From IMG/VR virus record IMGVR_UViG_3300033153_001775, positions 1-33,006 of that record: a stretch of 33,006 nucleotides of DNA; one strand, written 5' to 3'. Below the pieces are notes generated by a model. That model had not been told where the DNA came from. It did not search any database and was given only the letters and a program-made list of their open reading frames with translations. Within the stretch, counting starts at the first letter, position 1. The number at the start of each line of letters is the position of its first letter. The translations under genes and the position numbers were made by a program. Positions 2,726-28,312 of the stretch are shown here, one piece after another. This DNA is from a virus.

Positions 2726-3043
2726 ATGGGATACAGAAGTGATGTATATATAAAAATAAAAAAAATAGATAAAAAAAAGTTTATCGAATTACTTAAAGAA
2801 AAAGATTTACTCGATGCTTTTGAAGAAAAAGAATGGAATACAGAAACTCCTGATGAATATGTTAGATTTAGAGGAAACCATTTAAAATGGTATTCTAGAT
2901 ATGATGATGTTAAAAAAATTAATTCTTTTATTAATGCTTCTGGAGATAGAGGACTTATAGCCATAGGAGAAGATGATGCTACAATATATCAAGGTAATCC
3001 TTCAAATATAGATATGTTTAGTATTGTGGAGGTAGAATGGTAA
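2726..3043 (+). CDS. Conserved phage-type hypothetical protein, MGYRSDV family
   Basis: The 105-residue protein begins MGYRSDVYIKI, a start seen in a widespread but uncharacterised group of small phage and bacterial proteins. It continues with a Lys-rich amphipathic helix, a central WNTETPDEYVRFRGNHLKWY stretch rich in aromatic and charged residues, and an acidic C-terminus. It has no signal peptide, membrane segment or nucleotide-binding motif. It starts 8 bases after the primase stop, behind a weak AAGGA site, and overlaps the helicase start by 7 bases, so it is translated as part of the replication operon. Its function is unknown; alpha/beta ferredoxin-like folding is only a guess from the strand-helix pattern. 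Confidence 0.75.
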   Translation: MGYRSDVYIKIKKIDKKKFIELLKEKDLLDAFEEKEWNTETPDEYVRFRGNHLKWYSRYDDVKKINSFINASGDRGLIAIGEDDATIYQGNPSNIDMFSIVEVEW

Positions 3044-4314
3044 TACCTAAATTAACACTTCATCAAAATAATATTATACATAATCTACTTAATTGCTCTG
3101 ATAAAATAGTCCTCCTAACAGGTGGACCAGGAACAGGTAAATCTTTTACTATTTCCCAATTTATACAAACAATACAACATCAAGGGAATTTTGTAGGTAT
3201 CACAGCTACAAGCCATAAAGCAGCAGCTAATCTTACAGACATGATTGGAATACAAGCAACAACTATACATAAGTTCTTAGGTATGAGATTAGTTGATACT
3301 TATGGAACAGCACCTTATTTAACAGCAGTTAAAAATGCTAAAGTAGAAGCAGTAGATTACCTTATTATAGATGAAGTATCTATGCTCACTAAACCCCTCA
3401 TAGAACGCTTAGATGAGTATATTAAAGCTTTTAACCCTACTAAGGTTATATTAGTTGGAGATGCTATTCAACTAAGATTACCAGGGTCTATAGATATATC
3501 CTCATTTCCTATGTTTGAGTTAACTGAACAAATGAGACAGTTGAACACACCCAATGTTTCTACTACACTACAAACTATTAGAGAAAGTATTCAAAATAAA
3601 ACTGTCTTACCTAAACTAACAAATCAAGGTAAAGACTTAATTATCTATACTAACCATAATGATTTTTTAAAAGCCTATAAACATAGTGATTTTAATGATA
3701 GAGTATTTATTACTTACCAAAATAGAACAGTTAAATCTTATAATGATAATGTAAAACTATACATCTATGAAGATGAAGAAAAATATAGTAAAGGGGATAT
3801 TATATATCCTACTTCACCTATCATAGAAAAAGTAAGACATGATAAAGGTTTCTCTAATATAACCACTATTACTAATAGAGAACTTTGTACTATTTTAAAA
3901 GTACAAAAAAATCTAACAAAAGATGGTGATATATTTAGTTATAAATTAACTACAGACAAAGGTATTATAAAAGTACCTAAAGTTAAAACACAATTCTTTG
4001 AAGGCTTAGAAGTCTTAGCTCAAAGAAAAGACTGGGTTACTTTTTATGGATTGAAAAATACTCACTCTGCTGTACATCATACTTTCGCAGGAACTAGTCA
4101 TAGTCTCCAAGGAACATCTTTTGATGAAGTATTCATAGATTATACTGATATAGCTAAAATAGCTGATTATGGGTCAATAGATGACCTTAAAAGAGCATTG
4201 TATGTAGCTATCAGTAGATGTAAACATAAATGCCATATCTTTGTAGGAGATACTCGTAACTATAAAGCATTAGGTAAATATACACCAAGGAAAAACAATG
4301 AAAGCATGGATTAA
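3037..4314 (+). CDS. SF1 DNA helicase, Dda/RecD-like
   Basis: This 425-residue ATP-dependent DNA helicase acts in replication or recombination. Motif I/Walker A is GGPGTGKS at 29-36, motif Ia is ITATSHKAA near 55-63, motif II is LIIDEVSML with D112/E113, motif III is GDAIQL at 141-146, motif V is TSHSLQGTSFDEVF and motif VI is LYVAISRCKH, both near the C-terminus. Size and motif order match phage T4 Dda and the RecD-like AAA_30/UvrD_C_2 architecture, which is normally 5'-3'. It overlaps the previous gene by 7 bases and the next by 17, and its ribosome site GGAGG lies inside the upstream gene. N4-like phages carry a comparable helicase in their replication block. Confidence 0.92.
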   Translation: MVIPKLTLHQNNIIHNLLNCSDKIVLLTGGPGTGKSFTISQFIQTIQHQGNFVGITATSHKAAANLTDMIGIQATTIHKFLGMRLVDTYGTAPYLTAVKNAKVEAVDYLIIDEVSMLTKPLIERLDEYIKAFNPTKVILVGDAIQLRLPGSIDISSFPMFELTEQMRQLNTPNVSTTLQTIRESIQNKTVLPKLTNQGKDLIIYTNHNDFLKAYKHSDFNDRVFITYQNRTVKSYNDNVKLYIYEDEEKYSKGDIIYPTSPIIEKVRHDKGFSNITTITNRELCTILKVQKNLTKDGDIFSYKLTTDKGIIKVPKVKTQFFEGLEVLAQRKDWVTFYGLKNTHSAVHHTFAGTSHSLQGTSFDEVFIDYTDIAKIADYGSIDDLKRALYVAISRCKHKCHIFVGDTRNYKALGKYTPRKNNESMD

Positions 4315-6220: not shown

Positions 6221-6296
6221 TGAGGTATCGCCAAGTTGGTAAGGCATCACGTTTTGGGCGTGATATTCATAGGTTCGAGTCCTCCTACCCTAGCCA
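6221..6296 (+). tRNA. tRNA-Gln (anticodon TTG), CCA encoded
   Basis: The anticodon arm is TCACG-TTTTGGG-CGTGA, giving anticodon TTG, which reads the CAA codon favoured by this AT-rich genome. The D-arm GCCAAGTTGGTAAGGC is typical of bacterial tRNA-Gln, and the sequence ends G-CCA (6293-6296). Acceptor TGAGGTA/TACCCTA has an A-C mismatch at the third pair, and the T-stem ATAGG/CCTCC has two mismatches. The molecule is therefore either slightly degenerate, post-transcriptionally adjusted, or functional despite weak arms. Confidence 0.85.
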
Positions 6297-6303
6297 AATA
6301 TAA

Positions 6304-6380
6304 TGACGTATGTAACCGAGTGGTTAAGGTACTTTCCTCATAAGAAAGAGAAATCGGGGGTTCGAATCCCTCTGCGTCAA
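6304..6380 (+). tRNA. tRNA with CAT anticodon (Met or lysidine-type Ile2)
   Basis: Acceptor TGACGTA/TGCGTCA pairs fully with one G-U. The anticodon arm is CTTTC-CTCATAA-GAAAG (anticodon CAT) and the T-arm GGGGG-TTCGAAT-CCCTC is intact. The 3' CCA is not encoded: the discriminator A6380 is followed by GTACC. CAT can mean elongator Met, or Ile2 when modified to lysidine by the host; the phage uses ATA codons very heavily, so Ile2 would make sense, but the sequence does not decide. The last 12 bases are duplicated at 6818-6829, beyond the endonuclease gene. Confidence 0.88.
6369..6380 (+). repeat. 12-bp direct repeat, left copy (tRNA 3' end)
   Basis: CCTCTGCGTCAA is the 3' end of the CAT tRNA, including its 3' acceptor strand. 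It is identical to 6818-6829 and brackets the endonuclease gene. Confidence 0.8.
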
Positions 6381-7719: not shown

Positions 7720-8307
7720 ATGTTACCAGAAAATACAAAATTTGGAGACTTTAAAAAAGATGAATTTGCTTCTGAGGAATTTGAGTATTTATTCAATAAT
7801 ATATGGGAATGGTCAGAAAAACTAGATGGCACTAATATTCGTATTTACATTAAAGATGATGCTATAACTATAGCTGGTAGAACAGATAACTCTTCTATCC
7901 CTCAACATTTATATACATGGATTAATTCTTGGTATCAAACTAATAAAACAGAACTTCATAAACAATTCCCAAAAGGTGTAATATTCTATGGAGAAGGTGT
8001 AGGTAAAAAAATCCAATCTGGCGGTTTATTCGGTGAACAACATTTTAAACTGTTTGATGTTCTTATCGGAGATTTTTGGCTAAATAAAGATATTGTCACG
8101 AGTCTAGGTAAACAATTTAATCTAGATACACCTATTACATGGTTAGGTACAATGCAAGAAGCTATAAATAAAGTTAAAACTAAACCTAAATCTTCTTTTG
8201 GAGATTTTGATATAGAAGGTTATGTAGGAACTCCTACTTATAGATTATTTAATGCTAAAAAAGAAAGAATTATTACTAAAATAAAAGTAAAAGATTTTTG
8301 TAGATAA
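7720..8307 (+). CDS. RNA ligase family protein (nucleotidyltransferase core)
   Basis: The 195-residue protein has the ordered motifs of covalent nucleotidyltransferases: motif I EKLDGTN with the AMP-accepting Lys34, motif III IFYGEGVG with E92, motif IIIa FKLFDVL, motif IV DIEGYVG with E166, and motif V ERIITKIKVKDF with K187/K189. It resembles minimal phage RNA ligases lacking a large C-terminal domain. It would seal nicked RNA using ATP; with two tRNA genes 1.4 kb upstream, tRNA repair is a reasonable idea, though no polynucleotide kinase is in the window. The start is uncertain. ATG 7720 has no ribosome site, the well-spaced ATG at 7676 is out of frame, and the frame stays open upstream without another ATG. 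Confidence 0.85.
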   Translation: MLPENTKFGDFKKDEFASEEFEYLFNNIWEWSEKLDGTNIRIYIKDDAITIAGRTDNSSIPQHLYTWINSWYQTNKTELHKQFPKGVIFYGEGVGKKIQSGGLFGEQHFKLFDVLIGDFWLNKDIVTSLGKQFNLDTPITWLGTMQEAINKVKTKPKSSFGDFDIEGYVGTPTYRLFNAKKERIITKIKVKDFCR

Positions 8308-10261: not shown

Positions 10262-10429
10262 ATGTTTCGTCTAATTAGGGATATGATACTAGCTATTATG
10301 ATAGCAGGAGTGTTAATAGCAGCTTTGTCTGCTATTATGTATCTCTCTTTTCTTTTAGTACCTGTCTTGATACTCCTAGGAGTATCAGGAATAATTTTCT
10401 TTGTACTTCAAGATGAACGAAAGCGTTAA
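10262..10429 (+). CDS. Small membrane protein, 55 aa, holin candidate
   Basis: The product starts MFRLIRDMILAIMIAGVLIA and is almost wholly hydrophobic, with probably two membrane helices (about residues 8-28 and 30-50) and a charged QDERKR tail. Size and topology are compatible with a class II holin or another small phage membrane protein; no endolysin is visible beside it, so the role is open. It begins 3 bases after the previous stop with only a weak ribosome site. Its last bases overlap the convergent vRNAP gene by 4 bp, the shared TTAA supplying both stops. Confidence 0.68.
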   Translation: MFRLIRDMILAIMIAGVLIAALSAIMYLSFLLVPVLILLGVSGIIFFVLQDERKR

Positions 10430-13400
10430 GCTATAACATCAAAATTCAGTACATTCATAGGTAAGATAGTCTCTGCACTAAATATATCACCTATAGGGTC
10501 ATTAAGCAGATTCTCTCTAGTAAGAATATTACTACCTACTATATGATAAGGAGTATGTTCAGGGCTTAGCCCTAACAACTCTCCTGCTATTATAGCCCCA
10601 AAGAATGTTACTGGATTATTCTTACCTAACATAATAATAGCTCTCTGTATTCTAGCCCAGAATGTAACAAATGGGGTAACTAAATAATCACCAGTAGTTT
10701 TTAATAATCTAGGTGGATTAATACCGTAATTTAGATATGCATCATTTACTTTATCATTAATAACTTGTAACTGTGCAGCAGTTAATTCTGCTTCAGATTT
10801 ACCAGTTTGTTCTATTAAATAATCTCTATATATAGACTTAGCTATAGCATCAGGATAAAGAGTCATCATAGACCCTATCTGTGTTACCATAGAATTAGGA
10901 GCAGCAATATATTCAGCTAAATATTTACCCATCTCTTTATCTGTTTTTATTTGTTCCATCTTTTTAGACATCTCTCTTATACTATCTGTAAGAGCCTTAG
11001 ATGTTTTACCAGACTTTTCCATAGCTCTACTCATTTGACCTAATACATCTTCTATATTTATACCAAATTTAGAGAAGTTAAGTATCATATTACCAAAGCC
11101 ATTAGGAACACCTTCTTTTTCCATTGTAAGCTTATTTAAGACTGTTTCTACACTTCTCTGTAATCCAGTAATAGTATCATAATCTTTCAATATAATATCA
11201 GTAGAAATAGACTGCATCATTCCTGCTTTCATAAACCCAGCTAAGTCATGATTAGCTATATCATCTTCAATTCTCTTAAGAGCTAGTTCTGTATCATCTG
11301 TAGGATTAGCATGATGAGCTATAGACAGTTGAATCTGTTCAGCTCTAAGACTTGCCATTGCCGCAAACTTAGATGTATTTCGCTTATACCCTTTTACAAC
11401 ATCAATAGGCGATACCCCTAAAGAAACTAAAAGTGTAGTATTAGATATACCATCTAAAGTTATCTTAGCAGGATTAACAATAATCCAATGTATCTTCAAT
11501 AGTTTAACTAATTGTTTCACTATACTAAAGAATTTCCGTAACTCTGGAGTTTTCTCAAATGGTATAGCTTCTTTATACCCTACTAACCAAGGTGCTATAT
11601 CTTTTCTTACTAAAGTAATTTTAGTACTAAATCCTTTCACATTAGAAACAGGTTCAGTGATAATTCTATACTTTTGTCTTATCTCTTTAGGCATATCACT
11701 TAAAAGAACTTTACCTTGCAGTTTAACAAACCAAGGATTATCAATATTCTTATCTTTAATCATATCAACTAATGCTTGTGTATCTTCATCTTTAGCTGAT
11801 TTCACTACTTCTATCATACTATTCTGTACTATTTCATCTCTAATGGCTTGAGTTTCATATACTTCTCTAATATGAGAATAAGACCTCTTAAGTATCTGTC
11901 CTGGATTCTGTACAACACCCATCTCCTCTTTCTGAGCTTGAGTTAGAACTAGTTTTTGCCTTTCTACATTACCAAATTTAATTGTAACAGTATTCTGATT
12001 ATGACCTCTATACTCTACAGGTAATAATAAATCTGTATTAGCATAACTAAGATTTGTACCTGTACCTGCTTGATAAGATACATCACTTATATCTCTATAA
12101 ACAATACCATAATCATTTCCTGTAGGTTTCTCTAATATCTTCCATCCATTCTGTTCTATATATTCACCAGTAGCTAAATCCTGAATAGAGATAGCTTTAA
12201 TCTCTTTAGGTATTTCATAGTACTCACTAACCATATTTCCTCTATATTGAGGATTATCTGCATTAGATTTGTATACTACCTTAGATAGATTGTATAGAGA
12301 AATAGAAGCATCTGACAATGCATCATAAAGGTCCTTTTTATGCTTAAAGATGTCTTGGATAAGCTCTTGGCTACCTTTAACCTTTTTAAGACTATATAAG
12401 GCTGTCAGCTGACTAATACTAGCTTCTGCTTTAATAGTTAAATTCCCACTTTGAATATCTAAACTATAAGAGTCTGTATTCATAGCATTTCCATCTACAT
12501 ATAAATCAGCTAAACCTTGAGCTATTTTTATATACTCAAGATGTGTACTCTCTTCTAAATAAGTAATAGCATCATCTATAGACATATTACCTTCAGCTAT
12601 TGTTCTTAATATTCCATCATTCTGTATTAAAGAAAAAATAGGTGTAGTAGCAAAGATAGTATTTAAATTAGAAATAACTTCTTTACCCATACCTTTCATC
12701 ATAGCATCTATCTTAGCTGTCTCTGCATTGTCTATCTTATTCCTTGTCTGCATAGCACCAAGAGAGATAGAAAGAAATTCTGACATATGTTTCCTATCTT
12801 GAATCATTCCAGGATTTAAATAAGGTTTTAATTCACTCATAAAATCACTGTTCCATGCATCATCTATAATATTCCTAGTATTGGCATACATAGGAAAATT
12901 TGCTACTAATTTCTTATCCTGTGACTTCATCCATTTCATAACTAATGGCTCAGCAGCAGGACCAAACTTATTCCACAATAAATCTGCAACATTCTGATTA
13001 GTTGCTTGAAGAAAATCAGAAACTAAATCTCCTTGATAATAATAAGTTTTCTCAGTCTTCTTGTGGTATCCCATAGCCTTATTCATCTTTTGTTTACCAG
13101 ATAATTTAGCTTTAGTACCAAATTTACCAAGACCTATATCACTTACTACATCTTTAAGAACTAACTCTGATTTACCTCCCTCTTCTATAAGTCTTTCAGA
13201 TGCCTCTATTATTCCTTTAGGGTCTGATTTAAACATATTCGATATAGACTTCCAGATTCTTTGAATAGCAGCTTTAAACCCTGTTTGTGTACTTTTATTA
13301 GCTAACACACTGGTTATCTCTGAAGCTATAGATACTTCTGTTCCCATAACAGCTACTAATTCATATACTTTTCTCTTCTCACTATGGTTAGAATCTAATA

Positions 13401-16400
13401 TATACTGTACTCTCTCAAAAGCTTCTGAAGAAAGTTTCTTCTCTAAACTATCTAAATTCTTATCTAAATAAGTAATTATCTTTTTAAGATAACTAATGTC
13501 TTTATTAGTGTCCCAATATTTAAAAATAAATCCAGCAGACTTATAATGAGCTATCTCATGCTTTAGTCCCTCTATAATATCAGCAGTATTATTAGCTTCC
13601 TTATCTATGATAATTTTATGAAGTTTAGGACTGTATACCCATTCCTTACCTAAATCTAATACTGAAGCTATATCTTTGTCCTGAAAGAACTCTGCTATCT
13701 CCTTATCTAATTTAGACATGTCAACAACTATATCCTCTAAAGTCTTACCTGTTAAATCATAATCTTTAGATAATTTAGATTTCTTACCTAACCCAAACTC
13801 TCCTTCATAAGGCTCAACACTCCTATCTTCTTTAGCTTGTTTAGGTATTCCCTTTTGCTTAGAAGATTTTTCAATAACTTCCTTTTTCTTTTCTTTTTTC
13901 TTCTTAGGTGGAATATCTTTAGGCTTAACAATCTCATCTAATTCATTAGGAAACCCAAATAAAGATTCTGTATCATAATTCATATCAGCAAGAGCTTTCT
14001 GTTTCTTACCTGATGCTTCTTGAGCTTTCTTCAACTCTGTTTCATATTTAGTTACATCATGTCCCTCTATCTGTCCGTATGCTTCTATTAACATCTCATT
14101 AATATCATATACAGAGTTAATATCTCTAGAGGTTTCTCTATAGTTTCTTTGAAACTCTTCAGAGAACTCTGGATGAGCAATAACTTCATCATATACAGGC
14201 ATAGACCCACCCATTACTGCTGGATTAAATCTTTTATCCTTCTCAAAAGTACGTCTATAAGCTTCTATAAGAGCAGCATTATCCATCATATGAATCAAGT
14301 TAACAAAAGCAGCTATCATATGTGGTAATTCTTTTCTGATGACCATACTATTCTCACCAGGATTATCCACTGTTTCAAACAGCTTCATAACAGGAACACC
14401 TTTTTTATGCATCTCTACTAATTCTTCAGCATTAGGTTTCCTATCGTTATTTCTAACAAAATCGTAATATATAGAAGCAGGTACAACAGTAATACGTTCT
14501 TTATTAGAAGACTTATTATAAGCACTTTCTACCATATCCCAAAGACCTTCTACATACTCATTATTATCTTTTAAATGAACAGTAATAAATTTACTTTCTA
14601 ATGTATTGTATAAATAATCTGCTGTCACACTGTGATGGAAAGAGTACAATGCTTTATAAACACCCCTAGAATCATATTCTACCATCTCTGATACAGTCAT
14701 ACCATCTAAGTCTTTAGCTAACTTCTTATCAGTCTCAGCTATCTGTTTAAGAATAGTCTTTGTATCTGTAAATTTATCTATTCTCATAGCTGCGAATACT
14801 GCATCTGTAATATCAGAAGCAATAGTAGCTTGAGCAGAACCACCTGATTGATGATACATTACTGTCATAGAAGGAGATTTAGATATTTCTCTTAATCTAC
14901 CAAACACATTAGCTTCTAACCATTTAACACTATCTGTACCATCTTCATTAAGAGAACCTTCATAGTCCTCTTTGATTGCTTGTTCCATAATGTCATAAAC
15001 ATCCCTAAGAAGTGGGTGTGCTTCTGGGTCTTGTGCATTTAACTTATTATATACATTATCTAATCCTAATAAACTAAGTAAACTAAACCCATTCTTTAGA
15101 TATTTACCTGCCATTTGCATAGCCATAATAGCACCGCCTGAAGCAGTAGCATCTGGTTTAGGTAAATAAGAAGAAGTCATTTCTCCTTTATCTATTCCAT
15201 TCCTTAAATCTACTATTCCAGCTAAAGTATCTATAGCTTTCCATGGTCCACCAATACCTATCTCATTCTTCCAAGGAGTATCTGCATCTACACCTAGTTT
15301 CCGTAATCTATTGGTCATGAAAACTAATAACTTCTTTCCCTTCTTATCTTTAGGTAAATTCATAATAACTTCATATTCATCTAATAGAATATCTAACTCT
15401 TCATTTATACCTTTAAATAGAATATCATTAGTAGAAGCAAAGCTTCCCTGGTCTGCTAAACTTTGAGCAATGTGAGCAGTAACCTTATCTCCTATCTTTA
15501 CATCAATAGTATAAGGTTTTATACCCATCATAAATCTAGAGAAATGTTTATCTGTTTGATAATTACCTACAGTTTCCTGTACATTTAACCTAGCATTTCT
15601 TACCATTTTAAATGTATAAAAAAGAGGTTGATTTTTTAAATCATCCCAACTTTCCATGAAATCTGTAATAGGCATAGTTTTAGATAAAGCTTGACCTCTC
15701 TCAGATTCTCTGGTTACATCTGTAGTTTCACTTTCATGTTTATATCCAAACACATAAGCTCTTCCTGCTTTATTCATCTGTTTAGCAAAAGATTCTACTC
15801 CTTCTGCTCCTTTAGCCATACTTGAGATATACTCAAATACCTCTTCAAGATGAGAGTGATAATGTAATGCTCCTTTAGATAAAAGTTCTATAACACCATC
15901 TGTATCTTCAGATGTAGCTACATCATAATTATGACTGAATGTTTCTGGTTCTATAGTACTAGGTAACTGCTTATTAGATGGTATTTTAAGTCTATATATA
16001 AACTTACCTGTATCTACACTATTAACTAGCTTTCCGAAAGTATTATTTATACTACCTCTATCAAAAATAGTAGAATCTTTATTTAAATACTTAGACAATA
16101 GAGCTAAATCTTTACTATCTAAAGTTTCTTTAATACCAAAAGCTTCTGCATTAATTTGAATGATTTCACCTGGAATAACTTTAGTATCACCTTTATATCT
16201 TTCTTTAGGTTTATTTCTGTTCTTAAATCCTCTATTAATTATCTTACCATTAGATTTGATAGATACAAGCCCTATCTCTTCTAAGTCTTTGACTGCTTGC
16301 CTACCCATTTCTGTATACATAGTTTCTACAGCTTCCTGAGCTTGAGTATATGTTAAACCTTCCATAGCTTGAGCTTTAAGACTGATACCCTGTGTATAAG

Positions 16401-16893
16401 CAATATCTCTTCCTATAGCAGCATAAGTACCTAATGCGGAGACAGGAGGAATTATAGCTCCTACAGGAAGTATCTCTTTAATCTCGTTAGGGGATAAAGC
16501 GTATTTAGAAGCTAAATCTCTCTGAGTTTTTATGTCACTGATAATATGATTAAAAGCAAGGCTTCTAGCTAATAGTGATACACCAGTTAAATCTTTTCCT
16601 TGTAATAAAGGATTATCTTCAAACTTAGTAGAGAGTACAGCAATACCATTTAACTTCTTCATATAAGCATCAGAGTTTACTATATCTTTAACCTTTTTTA
16701 ATGCAGACTTAGAGGCTTCAATACCTTTAGTAAATAGGCTAAGTACAATACTATTATTAACAGCGTAGTTATCAAACCTATAATCTTTTTTACCAGATAT
16801 AGGTCCTCCTTCTACTTTAACACCTTTCCCATCTTCAGATTTAATCTTATATACCAACTTAAAGAATTGTTCTTTACTTATACATTCAGCCAT
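10426..16893 (-). CDS. Virion RNA polymerase (N4 gp50-like), compact form with C-terminal extension
   Basis: The 2155-residue protein is a T7-family single-subunit RNA polymerase, packaged and injected in N4-like phages. Motif A is PDATASGG with D581. Motif B is REISKSPSMTVMY with R668, K672 and Y680, the same R-x3-K-x7-Y spacing as T7 R627/K631/Y639. The pre-C segment FVNLIHMMDNAAL (863-875) precedes motif C MPVYDE with D902. The T/DxxGR region is degenerate (VRNAR, R435). The polymerase occupies about residues 1-960, whereas in N4 (about 3500 residues) roughly 1000 residues precede it. A Lys-rich linker (996-1016) follows, then KHEIAHY (1111-1117), a zinc-peptidase-like motif, and a long C-terminal part with hydrophobic stretches near the end. 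It is last in the virion cluster, as gp50 is relative to MCP and portal in N4. Start ATG 16893 follows AAGGATAATGT. Confidence 0.87.
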   Translation of the reverse strand: MAECISKEQFFKLVYKIKSEDGKGVKVEGGPISGKKDYRFDNYAVNNSIVLSLFTKGIEASKSALKKVKDIVNSDAYMKKLNGIAVLSTKFEDNPLLQGKDLTGVSLLARSLAFNHIISDIKTQRDLASKYALSPNEIKEILPVGAIIPPVSALGTYAAIGRDIAYTQGISLKAQAMEGLTYTQAQEAVETMYTEMGRQAVKDLEEIGLVSIKSNGKIINRGFKNRNKPKERYKGDTKVIPGEIIQINAEAFGIKETLDSKDLALLSKYLNKDSTIFDRGSINNTFGKLVNSVDTGKFIYRLKIPSNKQLPSTIEPETFSHNYDVATSEDTDGVIELLSKGALHYHSHLEEVFEYISSMAKGAEGVESFAKQMNKAGRAYVFGYKHESETTDVTRESERGQALSKTMPITDFMESWDDLKNQPLFYTFKMVRNARLNVQETVGNYQTDKHFSRFMMGIKPYTIDVKIGDKVTAHIAQSLADQGSFASTNDILFKGINEELDILLDEYEVIMNLPKDKKGKKLLVFMTNRLRKLGVDADTPWKNEIGIGGPWKAIDTLAGIVDLRNGIDKGEMTSSYLPKPDATASGGAIMAMQMAGKYLKNGFSLLSLLGLDNVYNKLNAQDPEAHPLLRDVYDIMEQAIKEDYEGSLNEDGTDSVKWLEANVFGRLREISKSPSMTVMYHQSGGSAQATIASDITDAVFAAMRIDKFTDTKTILKQIAETDKKLAKDLDGMTVSEMVEYDSRGVYKALYSFHHSVTADYLYNTLESKFITVHLKDNNEYVEGLWDMVESAYNKSSNKERITVVPASIYYDFVRNNDRKPNAEELVEMHKKGVPVMKLFETVDNPGENSMVIRKELPHMIAAFVNLIHMMDNAALIEAYRRTFEKDKRFNPAVMGGSMPVYDEVIAHPEFSEEFQRNYRETSRDINSVYDINEMLIEAYGQIEGHDVTKYETELKKAQEASGKKQKALADMNYDTESLFGFPNELDEIVKPKDIPPKKKKEKKKEVIEKSSKQKGIPKQAKEDRSVEPYEGEFGLGKKSKLSKDYDLTGKTLEDIVVDMSKLDKEIAEFFQDKDIASVLDLGKEWVYSPKLHKIIIDKEANNTADIIEGLKHEIAHYKSAGFIFKYWDTNKDISYLKKIITYLDKNLDSLEKKLSSEAFERVQYILDSNHSEKRKVYELVAVMGTEVSIASEITSVLANKSTQTGFKAAIQRIWKSISNMFKSDPKGIIEASERLIEEGGKSELVLKDVVSDIGLGKFGTKAKLSGKQKMNKAMGYHKKTEKTYYYQGDLVSDFLQATNQNVADLLWNKFGPAAEPLVMKWMKSQDKKLVANFPMYANTRNIIDDAWNSDFMSELKPYLNPGMIQDRKHMSEFLSISLGAMQTRNKIDNAETAKIDAMMKGMGKEVISNLNTIFATTPIFSLIQNDGILRTIAEGNMSIDDAITYLEESTHLEYIKIAQGLADLYVDGNAMNTDSYSLDIQSGNLTIKAEASISQLTALYSLKKVKGSQELIQDIFKHKKDLYDALSDASISLYNLSKVVYKSNADNPQYRGNMVSEYYEIPKEIKAISIQDLATGEYIEQNGWKILEKPTGNDYGIVYRDISDVSYQAGTGTNLSYANTDLLLPVEYRGHNQNTVTIKFGNVERQKLVLTQAQKEEMGVVQNPGQILKRSYSHIREVYETQAIRDEIVQNSMIEVVKSAKDEDTQALVDMIKDKNIDNPWFVKLQGKVLLSDMPKEIRQKYRIITEPVSNVKGFSTKITLVRKDIAPWLVGYKEAIPFEKTPELRKFFSIVKQLVKLLKIHWIIVNPAKITLDGISNTTLLVSLGVSPIDVVKGYKRNTSKFAAMASLRAEQIQLSIAHHANPTDDTELALKRIEDDIANHDLAGFMKAGMMQSISTDIILKDYDTITGLQRSVETVLNKLTMEKEGVPNGFGNMILNFSKFGINIEDVLGQMSRAMEKSGKTSKALTDSIREMSKKMEQIKTDKEMGKYLAEYIAAPNSMVTQIGSMMTLYPDAIAKSIYRDYLIEQTGKSEAELTAAQLQVINDKVNDAYLNYGINPPRLLKTTGDYLVTPFVTFWARIQRAIIMLGKNNPVTFFGAIIAGELLGLSPEHTPYHIVGSNILTRENLLNDPIGDIFSAETILPMNVLNFDVIA

Positions 16894-16902
16894 ACATTAT
16901 CC

Positions 16903-19900
16903 TTAATTACAAAGTGGTTTTTTCATACTATCAATAAATGAAGCTAACACCTCATCATTCATATCTTCTTCTGTTACAGGTTCTAAATTACTATTATCTA
17001 AGTTGCTATGAGAACTTCCAGCATCATTAGCTATATTTTCTATAATAACAGATTCTACCTTTTCTTTCTTAGGTGTCTTTACCTCTGGGTCTTTAGTTTC
17101 TTTTACCTCTGGTTCAGGTACAGTTTCAAACTCTTTCTTTGTTACAGTAGTATTAGCTTTTACTTTAGCTAATCTCTTCTCTAGAACACCCTTCTGAGCC
17201 TTAGTTATATCTTTCCTAACCTCTGCATCATCTAAGAGTCTTTGAACTTCTACAGCCTCTTCTATATAGCTAAATTTCCCTTGCCTAAGCATAGCTTTTA
17301 ACATATTAATATTATAAGATTTATTCTTACTAAGTACTACATCTTTAGTAATAAGAATATCTTGAGTCTCTGTATCATAGCCTTCTTTAGTTAAGGCAGA
17401 TTGTCTCTCTTTTTGTATTCTTTCAATTATCTTTTGTACTTCTAAAGAAGTCTTAGAATTTTCATAAGCTTCTGTAAGTGATTCATCACTATACTTAACT
17501 AGTTTATCATAAGCTCTGCGTTTAGATAACTTACCTGTAAGAATAGCTTTAACAGCAGACATAACTAAAGTATCATCTTTAACAGTTTTAGCACTATCTA
17601 TCTTACCTGTCTTCTGTTTAGTAGGTATACTTTCTTTTTTTATATCAAGCTTTTTATTAGCTTCTACTAAAGAACCTTTAAAAGTATTAATTTGTTTGTC
17701 AATCTGCCCATCAAACTCATCAGTGCCTAATAGACTTTTCTTCATAACTTCAAGATGAGCTATATTTATATCATCATAATTAAGTTCCATTCCAGGTAAT
17801 ATCTCATCAAAAGATGTTCCCTCTAGGAAAGATAGTTCTACTAACCCTTCATTAGGTACACTATTTATAAATTCCTCAGAACTTAAATCTTCTTCTAAAC
17901 CATAAATTTTAGCTAACATATCCACAAACACTCTTACATTTTTATCACTACTATCTAGTAACTTCTGTAAAATAGGTATTGTTCTGGTTTTATATGCTTC
18001 TTTAACATGAACATTCTCATCAAATTCTTCTAAGATAGACTCTTTATGAACAGTTCCCATAACTACATTTATATCATCTCCACCTATAGCTTCTAGCTCT
18101 TCATAAGTACTAGCTTTTTCAATGTCTACTTTCTTCTGCTCTAAATCATTAATACCAGATTCTATATCTGTTTTAAGTAACTCTGCATCAACTATAACTA
18201 AATCTCTATCCTTAGGACTTATAGCTTTAGCTTCATCTGCTTTCTGTTTCTCCCACATTTTTTCTTTATGAGCATGGTAAGCAGCTACAGGAACTCCAGG
18301 AGCTTCAACAGCACCTCTCAATGCTCCACCCATAACACCACCAGCTATACCTGCTGCAATAGCTTCATTCTTGGTTATAACTTTATCTTTAACATTCCAT
18401 GTCTGTTGAGCTTGGTCTGCTATCTCTTGCATAGCCTCAAATGTTCCTGCTTTAGCTACAGCACCTACTTTACCACCAACAGTTCTGCTTGTAGCACCAG
18501 TAGCTCCTCTGGTAACTCCTTTAGCTACTCCACCCATACTCTTCATAAGCTCTGCAATAGGCTTAAATACAAGGAATTGTTCTATACCTAATACCATGGC
18601 ATTGGTAGTCCACATTTGAGCTTTACGTTGCATATCTGGTTGCTCATCTTTGTGGAGTTTAGCATACTCATCACTATCTGCTTTAACTCTTGTAGCTACT
18701 GCTGCAAATAACCCTGGAAGCTTACCTGCTAATAGTACCATTTCTGGAGCTGATTGAGCTAAGTGAATATCTAAGTTCTTTAATACAGATAGAGCTGCTT
18801 TACCATACTCACCTTTATTGACAGCCTCAGTAAGTTCTCTACTAGAAACTTTTTGAAACTTTTTATCTAAACCTACTGTCTTCTCTAAATCTTCCCTAGA
18901 TACATCCCAGAAATCTCTAGTAGCTTGTCTACTTTTCTTAGTACCAGTACCTAAGTATTCTTCTAAATCTGCCATAGCTTCTGAACCGAAGTCCATACCT
19001 TGACCTATCTTTTCAGCTAGGGTAGTTACTATGCCTTTAATGTTAGAAGTAAATCTACCATCTCCTGTAGCACCACCATACTTCTCTAAATTATAATCTA
19101 TCTTCTCTTGAGTGGTCATATCTTTATACAACTTAGTAATTTCTTCAGGATTAGTTGTAGTGAGAGCTTTAGCAACTACTGGTCCTATAGTATTATCACT
19201 ACCGTCTACACTAGGTGCGTTAAGTAATCCCATAGTTTTAGCATCATAGTATTCAGAAGCTCCTGAACCATATGCTTCCCTCTGTTTAGCTGACTCAGGT
19301 GTTCCTTTATCAAACATCATACGAGCATCTATATTCCCTTTACTCCCATGTATTCTTCCTTCAGCTTTAGTTGCTACATCACTAGGAAGCTGCCAATTCA
19401 TGAAAGCAGATTTAGGGTCTATACCTTGGGGACCAGATTCCCATCCATATCTAGGGTTTCTGCTAAGCCCTTCTCTATGAGCTTGTCCAGGAGTATATCT
19501 AGGTTCTACACCATATCTACCTACACCAAATTTAACTACATCAGGACTTGTCTTAGAAGTACCACCATATAAGTAACTAGTATCTATGTTCTGGTCTTTA
19601 ATATAGTGTCTTTTACCTGTATGGTCTGGTAGTTGATATTTTCTACCTTGCTCATCTGTAAGTATTCTTTGGTCATAAACATCAGATATATATTGTTGCT
19701 GTTCAGTGGGAGTCATAGTATTGAGTATTTTATTCTTATTAGTGACAGAAACACCATCTACAATACTACGAGTATCAGGAGAAAAAGACTCTCCTTGTGA
19801 GATGGGGAGAGTACTAGTATCTCTATAGCCTTGAGAGTTATATCCTAATGTATTTCTTTTTTTATCTGCGGAGATAGCTAATCCACTTCGTTTTCGTCCT

Positions 19901-19953
19901 ACTGGTGAGTTAGCTACTTCACTCAAGTATTGCTCAAATAACTCATCAGTCAT
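16903..19953 (-). CDS. Large virion protein, probable DNA-ejection protein
   Basis: The product has 1016 residues. The first 300 residues are polar and loop-rich. A helical/hydrophobic zone at about 400-570 includes APEMVLLAGKLPGLFAAVA, VLGIEQFLVFKPIAELM and the Gly/Ala-rich IAAGIAGGVMGGALRGA, candidates for membrane insertion. The C-terminal 400 residues are charged and coiled-coil-like, ending in a disordered acidic tail. Size, hydrophobic Gly-Ala segments and position next to the vRNAP fit an internal or ejected protein of an N4-like virion (the gp51-gp54 slot). No catalytic motif was seen. ATG 19953 follows AAGGATAGCTA; 9 bases separate it from the vRNAP start. Confidence 0.75.
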   Translation of the reverse strand: MTDELFEQYLSEVANSPVGRKRSGLAISADKKRNTLGYNSQGYRDTSTLPISQGESFSPDTRSIVDGVSVTNKNKILNTMTPTEQQQYISDVYDQRILTDEQGRKYQLPDHTGKRHYIKDQNIDTSYLYGGTSKTSPDVVKFGVGRYGVEPRYTPGQAHREGLSRNPRYGWESGPQGIDPKSAFMNWQLPSDVATKAEGRIHGSKGNIDARMMFDKGTPESAKQREAYGSGASEYYDAKTMGLLNAPSVDGSDNTIGPVVAKALTTTNPEEITKLYKDMTTQEKIDYNLEKYGGATGDGRFTSNIKGIVTTLAEKIGQGMDFGSEAMADLEEYLGTGTKKSRQATRDFWDVSREDLEKTVGLDKKFQKVSSRELTEAVNKGEYGKAALSVLKNLDIHLAQSAPEMVLLAGKLPGLFAAVATRVKADSDEYAKLHKDEQPDMQRKAQMWTTNAMVLGIEQFLVFKPIAELMKSMGGVAKGVTRGATGATSRTVGGKVGAVAKAGTFEAMQEIADQAQQTWNVKDKVITKNEAIAAGIAGGVMGGALRGAVEAPGVPVAAYHAHKEKMWEKQKADEAKAISPKDRDLVIVDAELLKTDIESGINDLEQKKVDIEKASTYEELEAIGGDDINVVMGTVHKESILEEFDENVHVKEAYKTRTIPILQKLLDSSDKNVRVFVDMLAKIYGLEEDLSSEEFINSVPNEGLVELSFLEGTSFDEILPGMELNYDDINIAHLEVMKKSLLGTDEFDGQIDKQINTFKGSLVEANKKLDIKKESIPTKQKTGKIDSAKTVKDDTLVMSAVKAILTGKLSKRRAYDKLVKYSDESLTEAYENSKTSLEVQKIIERIQKERQSALTKEGYDTETQDILITKDVVLSKNKSYNINMLKAMLRQGKFSYIEEAVEVQRLLDDAEVRKDITKAQKGVLEKRLAKVKANTTVTKKEFETVPEPEVKETKDPEVKTPKKEKVESVIIENIANDAGSSHSNLDNSNLEPVTEEDMNDEVLASFIDSMKKPLCN

Positions 19954-19970: not shown

Positions 19971-20540
19971 TTAAAATGTTTGGCTTCTTAATGCATTCTT
20001 ATTCCAGTTAAAAGGATTAAAAAAACTAGTGTCTTCTACATCAGCAGAAATAGCAGCAGCTCTGTCAATATAACCAAGGTCACTTTTCATAGCAGCATCT
20101 CTAGCTTCCAATATTCTTATATCATCAGGATGCAGTGTTTCTCTTTGGTAAGGTGTTATAGCAGATTTAGTGCTTTGTGTACCTTTCTTCTTAAGACGTT
20201 TATCTTCTTTATATCCTTGCTCTATATCCCATAGAATATTATTTCTACGAGCTATCTCTTTCTGAGCAGCAGTCATACCTTTGCCTCTTCTACTAGCTGC
20301 TGACCTTGCTAATCCAAGTCTTGCTGTTCTATCTGCATCTTTAAGGAGATTAACTCTTTTAACTTCCTCAAATTGCTCTTTACTAAGTCCTAACCTACTA
20401 GCTTCCATCTCTTCTTTAGAAGCTCTATCTGCATCTTTAGCAATCATACTCTGTTGATATTGGTTAGATTGCATAAGAGCTTTAAAAGGGTTATTATAGG
20501 CTATCTGTGATGGTTGTATACCACTTCTTGTTCCACGCAT
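19971..20540 (-). CDS. Basic helical virion protein, 189 aa
   Basis: The product starts MRGTRSGIQPSQIAYNNPFK. It is long-helical and rich in Arg, Lys and Ala (KDADRTARLGLARSAASRRG), with a hydrophilic C-terminus ending NALRSQTF. It has no known domain. It sits between the 127-residue and 1016-residue virion genes, 4 bases after the former, in the slot corresponding to N4 gp51-gp54, so an internal capsid or ejection role is inferred from place and composition. Confidence 0.68.
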   Translation of the reverse strand: MRGTRSGIQPSQIAYNNPFKALMQSNQYQQSMIAKDADRASKEEMEASRLGLSKEQFEEVKRVNLLKDADRTARLGLARSAASRRGKGMTAAQKEIARRNNILWDIEQGYKEDKRLKKKGTQSTKSAITPYQRETLHPDDIRILEARDAAMKSDLGYIDRAAAISADVEDTSFFNPFNWNKNALRSQTF

Positions 20541-20544
20541 AACA

Positions 20545-20928
20545 TTATCCTCCGAAACTCATGTTTGAAGCTGCTCCATAGAATTGTTTATATCTTTCAG
20601 CATCTTCATTCATAATTTTTCTTTTATCTTTAGAAGCTCTTATATTTTCTTTATTTACTGCCATAGCACCATTAGGTCCAAATGCAGAGTATAGTCCAGC
20701 AACAGTATTAATACCACCATAAATATCTTTTGCATTCATATTATCCCACCAAGAACCACCTGCATCACCAAAAGCTGATGTAGTAGTAAGTGAGGGGTCT
20801 ACCATAGCATTATAAGCTTGGTCTTGAGCTTGTAAACCAAAAGGGTCATTGAAATTAGTTCCCCCAAAATCCATACCTGTATTACTGTAGTCTTGCATTG
20901 GTTGATTATATCCTACATTTCCACCCAT
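20545..20928 (-). CDS. Gly/Asn-rich small virion protein, 127 aa
   Basis: The product begins MGGNVGYNQPMQDYSNTGMD. Its first half is low-complexity (Gly, Asn, Asp, aromatic), then a short Ala/Gly hydrophobic stretch (GGINTVAGLYSAFGPNGAM) and a charged helix (RASKDKRKIMNEDAERYKQF) precede a Gly-rich end. This layout is common in small internal virion proteins of podoviruses. ATG 20928 follows AAAAGGATTCAACA. The upstream intergenic gap holds two stem-loops. Confidence 0.68.
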   Translation of the reverse strand: MGGNVGYNQPMQDYSNTGMDFGGTNFNDPFGLQAQDQAYNAMVDPSLTTTSAFGDAGGSWWDNMNAKDIYGGINTVAGLYSAFGPNGAMAVNKENIRASKDKRKIMNEDAERYKQFYGAASNMSFGG

Positions 20929-26410: not shown

Positions 26411-28312
26411 TTACGATATTTGTTCCATAAACTGTTCAGTCTTTTGTCCACCAAATTGTTGGTCTTTTAAGATACTCATAGCCTGTAAAGCATCTGGTTC
26501 ATATACAGTCTGTTCCTGTAAAGCATACATCTGTTCTGGAAACTGGAATGAAGTCTTTTCTAACTGGTCTTCATTAACAGTATCAGGCTTAGATGCACTG
26601 TTGTTTGCAAGCTTCATATATACAGAAAGTCCTTGCTTTAGCCTACCTATAAATCCAGAGATACTCATCTCAGCAAAAGATGTTGTTGTTCCAAATAGAA
26701 CTTTCATCGGATTTGTAATTATATCTAATACAGATAAAATATTATTAGACACATTATCTATAACATTTACAACAACATCTTTAACAAACATTTCGACAGT
26801 ATACTCAGAAACAGCATTAATTAACCCTTCATCTAACGCTTTTAGTGCAAACTTTTTGAAAGCGTTCTGTACCACAGCCATTATACCTGTTATAGATGCT
26901 GCTAATCCAATTATCTGAGCTACCTGTCCTATTATTCTTACAAGTCTCATAGCAGACAGTCCCATCTGGCTGAGAATAATACCGCCAACAGTTAATACTA
27001 AAGCTCCATACCCTAATCCCATAGCTAGAGAAGCCAAAGAGAAGGCTGAAGGTCCTAATACACCTGCTGTAAATAGAGTTACTACAATAGCTGCTATAAA
27101 AATGATAATAGCTAAGAGTTTCTCCCACCAGGAAGCTTCTTCTGCTTTAAAGTCTGTATCTAAGCATTCAGCTACCATACTTACAAACTCATACCTTTTC
27201 ATACTATCAACTTTATCTTTTATAAGCTTTCCATTGCTGAAGTATTCTCCCCAGTAAGAATGCTCTGCTAACTCTTCTTCCGTTAAAGAGTTCATATGTA
27301 AATCATACATACTATGTTTAATTGTAGTATCTATAATTATATTTTCTCTTTTTCTGTTTGTTATATATGAAGTATAGGTATCTATATCTTGGATAAGCAT
27401 ACTATCTTCATCAGCTCCAGTATACTCAAACTCATAAACTTCATAATATCCCAATGATACCCCAGCTAATGCAAAGTCTGATGTATTTTTTACGTCAGAA
27501 ATAATAAGGTCTCCATTTGTATCAAATAGCTCTTCAGGAGGATTTTCATCAGCTTGGGAATAAGTAATGAAGCCTGAGTCTATAATAATCTTATTTCCTT
27601 GGCTATCTTTTGTGGAAACAAAGCATGACTCGGAAGAGTCTACAAGACTTAATACACCAAAAGAATTATCTAAGGAGGTAGCTATAGTTACAGGAGTGGT
27701 AGTTTTACCAACTATGAACTCAGGTGCAAGATTAGCTGCTATACTTACATCTCCTGTGTTAACTGTGTTAAATCCTACAACCTCTCTATATTCATCAGCA
27801 GATACAGTAATATTAGCTATATACTTCCAAGGACTACTAAACAGTCTTTCCATTAAAGCCACAGTATTGAACCCTTCAGACTCAATCTCACCTGCATCAT
27901 TAATACCCCATATATCTGTAAACTCTGGTAAAACTCTTTGTGTAGGTCCACCATACACCAGTTTAACCTGATATTTAGTACCTATAATAAGGGTAGCATT
28001 TAATGTAGTAGCTAATTCAGGGGGGTTAACTAGATTAGTTATATCTCCAGAAGGAGTTTTATTACGGTTAAAATAGAACCAAGCTTGCTCTACTTCATCA
28101 TAATCATTATCTTTTAAACTCTTACAAGAAGTACCTATAGCCTTAAGAAATCTATCTAATCCTTCATCCTCCACAACTTCTCCGCCTGTATAGAATTTAA
28201 GTTTATGGGAATAGTGTATACCATCAACATCAACTCCCCATCTTTTTCTGAATCTCTGATAGATAGTAGAGTTCATTCTAAAGTTATTGATAAGGGGACC
28301 TACATAATCCAT
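26411..28312 (-). CDS. Structural protein with long hydrophobic segment, 633 aa
   Basis: The product starts MDYVGPLINNFRMNSTIYQR. The first 390 residues are strand-rich and polar; residues about 398-485 form two to four hydrophobic helices (KLLAIIIFIAAIVVTLFTAG, LVLTVGGIILSQMGL, AASITGIMAVV). A helical tail ends EQFMEQIS. A virion protein with such segments next to the portal is a candidate for a tail or ejection channel component; no enzymatic motif was seen. The ribosome site AAGGAG lies about 20 bases before ATG 28312, too far, while the frame stays open between them, so the true start may be non-canonical. It could also be a tail sheath or neck protein. Confidence 0.7.
   Translation of the reverse strand: MDYVGPLINNFRMNSTIYQRFRKRWGVDVDGIHYSHKLKFYTGGEVVEDEGLDRFLKAIGTSCKSLKDNDYDEVEQAWFYFNRNKTPSGDITNLVNPPELATTLNATLIIGTKYQVKLVYGGPTQRVLPEFTDIWGINDAGEIESEGFNTVALMERLFSSPWKYIANITVSADEYREVVGFNTVNTGDVSIAANLAPEFIVGKTTTPVTIATSLDNSFGVLSLVDSSESCFVSTKDSQGNKIIIDSGFITYSQADENPPEELFDTNGDLIISDVKNTSDFALAGVSLGYYEVYEFEYTGADEDSMLIQDIDTYTSYITNRKRENIIIDTTIKHSMYDLHMNSLTEEELAEHSYWGEYFSNGKLIKDKVDSMKRYEFVSMVAECLDTDFKAEEASWWEKLLAIIIFIAAIVVTLFTAGVLGPSAFSLASLAMGLGYGALVLTVGGIILSQMGLSAMRLVRIIGQVAQIIGLAASITGIMAVVQNAFKKFALKALDEGLINAVSEYTVEMFVKDVVVNVIDNVSNNILSVLDIITNPMKVLFGTTTSFAEMSISGFIGRLKQGLSVYMKLANNSASKPDTVNEDQLEKTSFQFPEQMYALQEQTVYEPDALQAMSILKDQQFGGQKTEQFMEQIS

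Follow-up and report, generated by a model that had tools for sequence, protein, structure and literature searches.

We analysed a 33,006-nucleotide stretch of viral DNA (IMG/VR record IMGVR_UViG_3300033153_001775, hereafter the window) in which two adjacent minus-strand genes form an operon encoding a virion RNA polymerase (vRNAP) of the type known from coliphage N4. An earlier note on this DNA had described the downstream gene, an open reading frame (ORF) at 10426-16893 reported without its strand, as a compact vRNAP that begins with its polymerase domain and lacks the domain that precedes it in N4. The product of this ORF is referred to as P0001 and that of its upstream neighbour as P0002. 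The features of the two genes are as follows:

10426..16893, minus: polymerase chain of the split vRNAP (P0001, 2155 amino acids), comprising an RNA polymerase (RNAP) domain at about residues 1-960, a linker, a C1 domain with an HExxH motif and a C2 domain
16903..19953, minus: N-terminal-domain chain of the split vRNAP (P0002, 1016 amino acids), identified by tblastn to the AD45 vRNAP N-terminus and by a profile-profile match
16900..16904, minus: Shine-Dalgarno sequence AAGGA of P0001, 6 nucleotides 5′ of the ATG and overlapping the P0002 stop codon
16909..16911, minus: Cys1015 of P0002, the sole cysteine of the chain and the penultimate of its 1016 residues (CTT TGT AAT TAA)
16882..16884, minus: Cys4 of P0001, the sole cysteine in 2155 residues (codon position computed from the ORF coordinates)
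15589..15591, minus: R435, arginine of the T/DxxGR motif (N4 mini-vRNAP R424), invariant in 77 of 77 relatives
15151..15153, minus: motif A D581 (N4 D559), invariant in 77 of 77
14854..14892, minus: motif B R668, K672 and Y680 (N4 R666, K670 and Y678), with R and K in 77 of 77 and Y in 76 of 77
14188..14190, minus: motif C D902 (N4 D951), in 76 of 77, the remaining one being a gap
13546..13560, minus: HExxH motif of the C1 domain (P0001 residues 1112-1116), also present in N4 (at 2228), PT11, R22Y and L006 and absent from AD45-type chains

A polymerase and its N-terminal domain in two genes

P0001 is an N4-type (Schitoviridae gp50-type) vRNAP of a divergent lineage, as the earlier note had proposed. 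The catalytic residues named there (D581, R668, K672, Y680 and D902) are conserved in the alignment of 77 relatives from which the above counts derive, and the spacing of motif B, with K at R+4 and Y at R+12, is the same as in N4 (R1663/K1667/Y1675, equivalent to R666/K670/Y678 of mini-vRNAP). The polymerase domain opens its own chain: in a profile-profile comparison, residues 1-960 by themselves match the polymerase profile of Schitoviridae vRNAPs (hhalign, E value 3e-10); with the polymerase part of a lineage profile built from P0001 and three relatives, the E value is 1e-20. The rest of P0001 corresponds to the vRNAP C-terminal domain (CTD) profile (hhalign, 1e-17 for the single sequence and 6e-26 for the lineage) and to PHROG 2206 (4e-22), and it retains the HExxH motif. 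The motif was already known in N4 vRNAP (PMC12633501). This zincin-like HExxH of the C1 domain is also found in Presley, and no third zinc ligand was identified in P0001.

Neither phmmer against the PDB nor a Pfam search of P0001 gave a match, and no relatives emerged from scans of viral contigs with P0001 alone or with the PT11 and R22Y sequences, or from scans of genome contigs and of plasmids. Searching with the Schitoviridae profiles (hmmsearch) detected only the CTD of P0001, so that profile-profile comparison was needed. At the level of the fold, an AlphaFold2 model of modest confidence (mean predicted local distance difference test score 55, predicted template modelling score 0.55), used for fold matching only, retrieved N4 vRNAP entries as its nine best PDB matches (3c2p, E value 4e-10; 2po4, 9pnq, 9pnr), with the RNA polymerases of mitochondria and T7 next in rank, and N4-like vRNAPs again ranked first in a viral structure library. 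The input alignment of the model contained N4-type relatives and leans it towards the N4 fold, so this agreement is not wholly independent; the structural alignment with the N4 RNAP domain has only about 12% identity. By analogy with the vRNAP class, both P0001 and P0002 would be packaged and ejected, and transcription from single-stranded DNA hairpin promoters would be expected. Just beyond the end of P0001, between the convergent early (plus-strand) and late (minus-strand) gene blocks, lies a strong terminator-like hairpin of 11 pairs (10365-10390).

The N-terminal domain (NTD) that the earlier note had considered absent is encoded by P0002, which ends 9 bases before the start of P0001. In a tblastn search of 50,697 phage records, residues 51-239 of P0002 match the N-terminus of the AD45 vRNAP (E value 2e-6), and in a blastp comparison within a small test set, its E values against the NTDs of five AD45-type phages are 1e-16 to 1e-9. 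A profile of the proteins at the P0002 position in four phages scores 61.6 (E value 4e-6) against a vRNAP N-domain profile of 65 sequences, compared with at most 20.8 for 40 column shuffles and the reversed profile. Against the polymerase, CTD, gp51 and gp53 profiles it reaches E values of 0.02 or worse, and likewise against gp54, for which a smaller profile set was used. The C-terminal tail of P0002, about 100 residues rich in proline, glutamate and lysine, corresponds in place and character to the low-complexity linker of about 100 residues (907-1006) that connects the NTD and RNAP domains of N4 vRNAP, whose NTD inserts into membrane nanodiscs (PMC12633501); hydrophobic, glycine-rich stretches occur at residues 405-549 of P0002. 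As judged from these comparisons, the N-terminal domain of about 1000 residues is present in trans as P0002, and the vRNAP of the window is split at the flexible linker of N4 gp50, between NTD and RNAP domain. With a summed coding capacity of 3171 amino acids, the enzyme is not a reduced one, and the proposal that P0001 defines the minimum needed for packaging and ejection is left without support.

The same tandem layout is found in Alteromonas phages PT11-V19 (OP751378; 1000+2082 amino acids) and R22Y (PP212876; 1008+2083) and in IMG/VR locus L006 (987+2068). Since it is kept at about 24% identity of the polymerase chain and with different intergenic spacers, the split is not a sequencing error. 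The N-genes of PT11-V19 and R22Y are only 16-25% identical to P0002 in global alignment, and the accessible portion of the published account of Alteromonas phage R22Y (PMC11705849) reports the vRNAP of about 2,080 residues (2083) alone, with no mention there of the neighbouring N-terminal gene. A second group, consisting of AD45-P1 to P4 and IMG/VR loci L107-L109, also has a split vRNAP with an N-domain homologous to P0002, but differs from the window in being cut between RNAP and CTD and in lacking HExxH; the chains of AD45-P1 and L107-L109 measure 2495+1409, 2510+1439, 2431+1390 and 2802+1394 amino acids. Each group is monophyletic (support 1.0), and the two are sister clades (0.967) in a midpoint-rooted tree. 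The cuts of the two groups fall where N4 vRNAP has its two flexible linkers, 907-1006 and 2102-2123 (PMC12633501).

Zheng et al. 2023 joined the two adjacent ORFs of AD45-P1 and three of Shigella phage pSb-1, treating them as gene-calling mistakes or read-through (PMC10654107). This account likely fails for AD45-P1, and an error is likely for pSb-1. The vRNAP of the latter (L070, 631-11437) lies in three ORFs without end cysteines and is a single ORF in relatives of 94% identity; we rejected it as a third natural split, and its interruptions are probably sequencing errors.

Cysteines at the facing ends

N4-type vRNAPs are known to lack cysteine, a property that has been linked to their passage through tail and periplasm (PMC2784036, PMC3715699, PMC3915230). 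It is not strict, as 70 of the 77 near-complete unsplit vRNAPs contain no cysteine at all. N4 gp50 is one cysteine-free chain of 3500 amino acids, within a usual range of about 3000-3800 for a single polypeptide, whereas the vRNAP of the window consists of two chains (1016+2155 amino acids), cut at the linker that follows the NTD and carrying one cysteine at each facing end. In other respects it resembles N4 gp50 and the vRNAPs of Schitoviridae, sharing T7-like motifs and fold, the C1 domain with HExxH, the C2 domain, the NTD, and a gene order in which the polymerase comes after the major capsid gene and the genes in the gp51 and gp52 slots. Because two genes replace one polypeptide, it is classed as a split variant rather than the canonical Schitoviridae form.

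The cysteines of the split chains follow a rule. Across all eight split schitoviruses, every chain (16 of 16) has exactly one cysteine, always at the end facing its partner, 0-4 residues from the C-terminal end in the first chain and at residue 4-6 in the second. The rule is common to the four window-type phages (NTD|RNAP) and to four AD45-type phages (RNAP|CTD). Five phages first revealed the pattern; once the hypothesis stood, L107-L109 and the crassviruses were taken as tests of it. No such paired-end arrangement was seen in gp13-gp16 of phage T7 (L111), where gp15 and gp16 are cysteine-free and gp14 has one cysteine, at residue 2.

The rule recurs in an unrelated family. The vRNAPs of Crassvirales resemble those of the split schitoviruses in being giant ejected polymerases made in two or three pieces with cysteines at facing ends only (phi14:2 gp65-gp67; crAss001 gp47/gp49/gp50), and differ in their two-barrel polymerase fold, unrelated to the N4 type, in that the pieces may lie in different operons or on different strands, and in the internal cysteines of some pieces. 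All three crAss001 pieces, A (gp47), B (gp50) and C (gp49), have been found in virions (PMC10172136). Given as position/chain length for C-terminal cysteines, the residues are:

phi14:2: A (gp67) C1797/1797; B (gp66, PDB 6VR4) C3 and C2179/2180; C (gp65) C3
crAss001: A C2339/2341; B C5 and C2404/2412, plus one internal; C C5
cr111: A C1636/1638; B C5 and C2281/2283; C C3
cr85: A C2515/2518; B C3 and C2401/2401; C C5
cr126: B C5 and C2402/2402; C C4 (A not seen)

In phi14:2, the four end cysteines are the sole cysteines in 5,398 amino acids of gp65-gp67. In cr50 and Fpv2, which make A and B as one protein, the AB|C pair alone is present, and p-crAss, with B fused to C, has only that of A|BC. 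The end cysteines are still present in crAss001 and cr85, which have piece A on the opposite strand, and neither read-through nor a junction artefact can therefore explain them. Phage cr116 also fits the rule and was left out of the counts, its B gene being interrupted. The interruption, in cr116_1 (L120, 16095-26960), is by a small ORF annotated as Salmonella-phage-like, probably an intron or other insert; B1 ends with Cys 2507/2507 and B2 with Cys 833/833.

Over 16 phages with two unrelated polymerase types, a terminal cysteine occurs at 41 of 41 facing ends and at none of 31 outer ends (Fisher p 4e-21, a value that overstates independence because the genomes are related). As background, among 254 other proteins of the same genomes, 2.0% have a cysteine within the six residues at the start and 4.3% within the six at the end. 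A literature search found no report of a terminal-cysteine rule; Drobysheva 2021 (phi14:2) and Yutin 2018 lay outside its reach, and an earlier mention there is possible.

The surrounding structural genes

Hallmark genes assign the window to the Schitoviridae. N4-type genes of the window include those for the portal, the major capsid protein and a tape-measure-like protein, with matches to PHROG 1216 (portal, 2e-193), PHROG 1357 (head, 2e-75) and PHROG 2120 (3e-42), and the closest portal is that of Alteromonas phage AD45 (AD45-P4), at 49% identity. Downstream of the capsid gene come, in order, a gp55-slot protein, a 127-residue gp52-slot protein, a 189-residue gp51-slot protein, P0002 and P0001. 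Details of the genes in the gp51 and gp52 slots and of the gp53 homologue are as follows:

19971..20540, minus: cysteine-free protein of 189 amino acids at the position of gp51 (periplasmic tunnel), placed by position and its lack of cysteine, with no gp51 profile match
20545..20928, minus: cysteine-free protein of 127 amino acids at the position of gp52 (outer-membrane channel), with a weak gp52 profile match (E value 0.004)
26411-28312: homologue of the tail plug gp53 (profile match 5e-6)

The gp53-like gene lies beyond the portal gene rather than beside gp52 and gp51 as in N4, indicating a rearranged structural module. Elsewhere in the window, at 6221-6380 and 7720-8307, tRNA-Gln and tRNA-Met genes occur near an RNA ligase gene (Pfam PF09414, 1e-14), possibly forming a tRNA repair set.

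Proposed joining of the chains and competing explanations

The split vRNAP chains are probably packaged, ejected and joined end to end by a disulfide between their lone facing-end cysteines. An ancestral single chain has been cut into two genes at the linker between the membrane-binding NTD and the T7-like polymerase domain, and both products would be packaged and ejected. The C-terminal cysteine of the N-domain chain would bond to the N-terminal cysteine of the polymerase chain, and this disulfide could keep the pieces as one continuous thread through tail and envelope. In keeping with this, disulfides are on record for crAss001 between virion proteins other than the polymerase pieces (PMC10172136). 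The reducing cytoplasm of the host would then break the bond, which in the window type would free the polymerase from its membrane anchor. In the AD45 type, reduction may free an autoinhibitory CTD, inhibition by this domain having been described for N4 vRNAP (PMC12633501). We also lean, with somewhat less assurance, towards the broader view that N4-type and crAss-type injected polymerases are both made as separately translated pieces and linked head to tail through redox-sensitive terminal-cysteine disulfides, in two unrelated lineages.

Several points weigh against such a linkage. That the ends meet and form a junction disulfide is deduced from sequence. Synthesis of the chains takes place in a reducing cytoplasm and the hosts of crassviruses are anaerobes, so that oxidation would need the released virion or the periplasm. 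Moreover, cysteine-freeness has been explained as disulfide avoidance during ejection, which would make a deliberate disulfide unexpected. Many of the 41 facing ends are related by descent; p-crAss gp47 (857 amino acids; L116, 5588-8161) has a lone cysteine at 856/857 with no evident partner end; and the N-genes of PT11, R22Y and L006 match P0002 by position, length, lone cysteine and profile, not by BLAST.

Conceivably, the end cysteines could serve another role, in homodimer disulfides, metal binding, or attachment to the portal, the membrane or another virion protein, an explanation that we regard as unlikely yet worth keeping in view. Several polymerase copies are present per virion (about four in N4, PMC12633501) so that like chains could pair, and the unpartnered cysteine of p-crAss gp47 would suit such a role. 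Homodimers or anchors, however, would not obey a facing-end rule, in which cysteines occupy both sides of different cut sites and are gone at fusions and at all outer ends, and a single cysteine per chain makes a poor metal site.

It is very improbable that P0001 is a truncated vRNAP that has lost its NTD and that P0002 is an ejection protein with no relation to it, gp51 or gp53 for instance. This would accord with the lack of any significant match of P0002 in Pfam or PHROG and with the empty single-sequence comparison with N4 itself, but P0002 specifically matches the AD45 vRNAP N-terminus and the N-domain profile. PT11 and L006, besides their gene of about 1000 residues, have candidates of their own for gp53 and gp52 as well as a gene in the gp51 slot, and the window has its own gp53 at 26411-28312; on these grounds, together with the profile specificity, identification of P0002 as gp51 or gp53 was rejected.

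Still less credible is a single protein in practice, arising by stop read-through, ribosomal frameshift or sequencing error, the kind of explanation adopted earlier for AD45-P1 (PMC10654107). The genes do abut, and the AD45 records carry the remark 'potential frameshift'. P0001, however, begins with an ATG in a changed frame behind its own Shine-Dalgarno sequence, and an in-frame TAA 6 nucleotides upstream of that ATG makes a longer N-terminus impossible; together, these signals exclude a frameshift fusion. The split is kept in eight divergent schitoviruses with different spacers, and for crAss001 and cr85 the opposite strand of the first piece refutes a single protein outright. It is equally implausible that the end cysteines were left behind by split inteins or some other trans-ligation reaction, for although inteins are common in crassviruses (PMC7886860) and a cysteine after a short N-terminal peptide (MHKPNC, MANC) or near the C-terminal end (CN, CNGK) superficially resembles extein junctions, neither chain has an intein domain, the N-terminal cysteine is not at residue 1 or 2, and relics would not remain the sole cysteine down to about 24% identity.

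The split in the window corrects the idea that the vRNAP N-terminal domain is dispensable. The terminal-cysteine rule rescues split vRNAPs that have been discarded as gene-calling errors or by length filters, such as the exclusion of proteins under 2500 amino acids in one survey (PMC10654107), and it is concrete and cheap to test in cultured phages, while according with the avoidance of cysteine elsewhere in vRNAPs. If joining by terminal disulfides is correct, it would bear on how a multi-domain polymerase of 3,000 residues passes through a tail channel of about 35 Å, and on what keeps its parts in order, in both N4 and the crAss-like phages. It could then serve generally to draw an enzyme of several parts through the tail as one chain, the parts of which would be released in the reducing cytoplasm.

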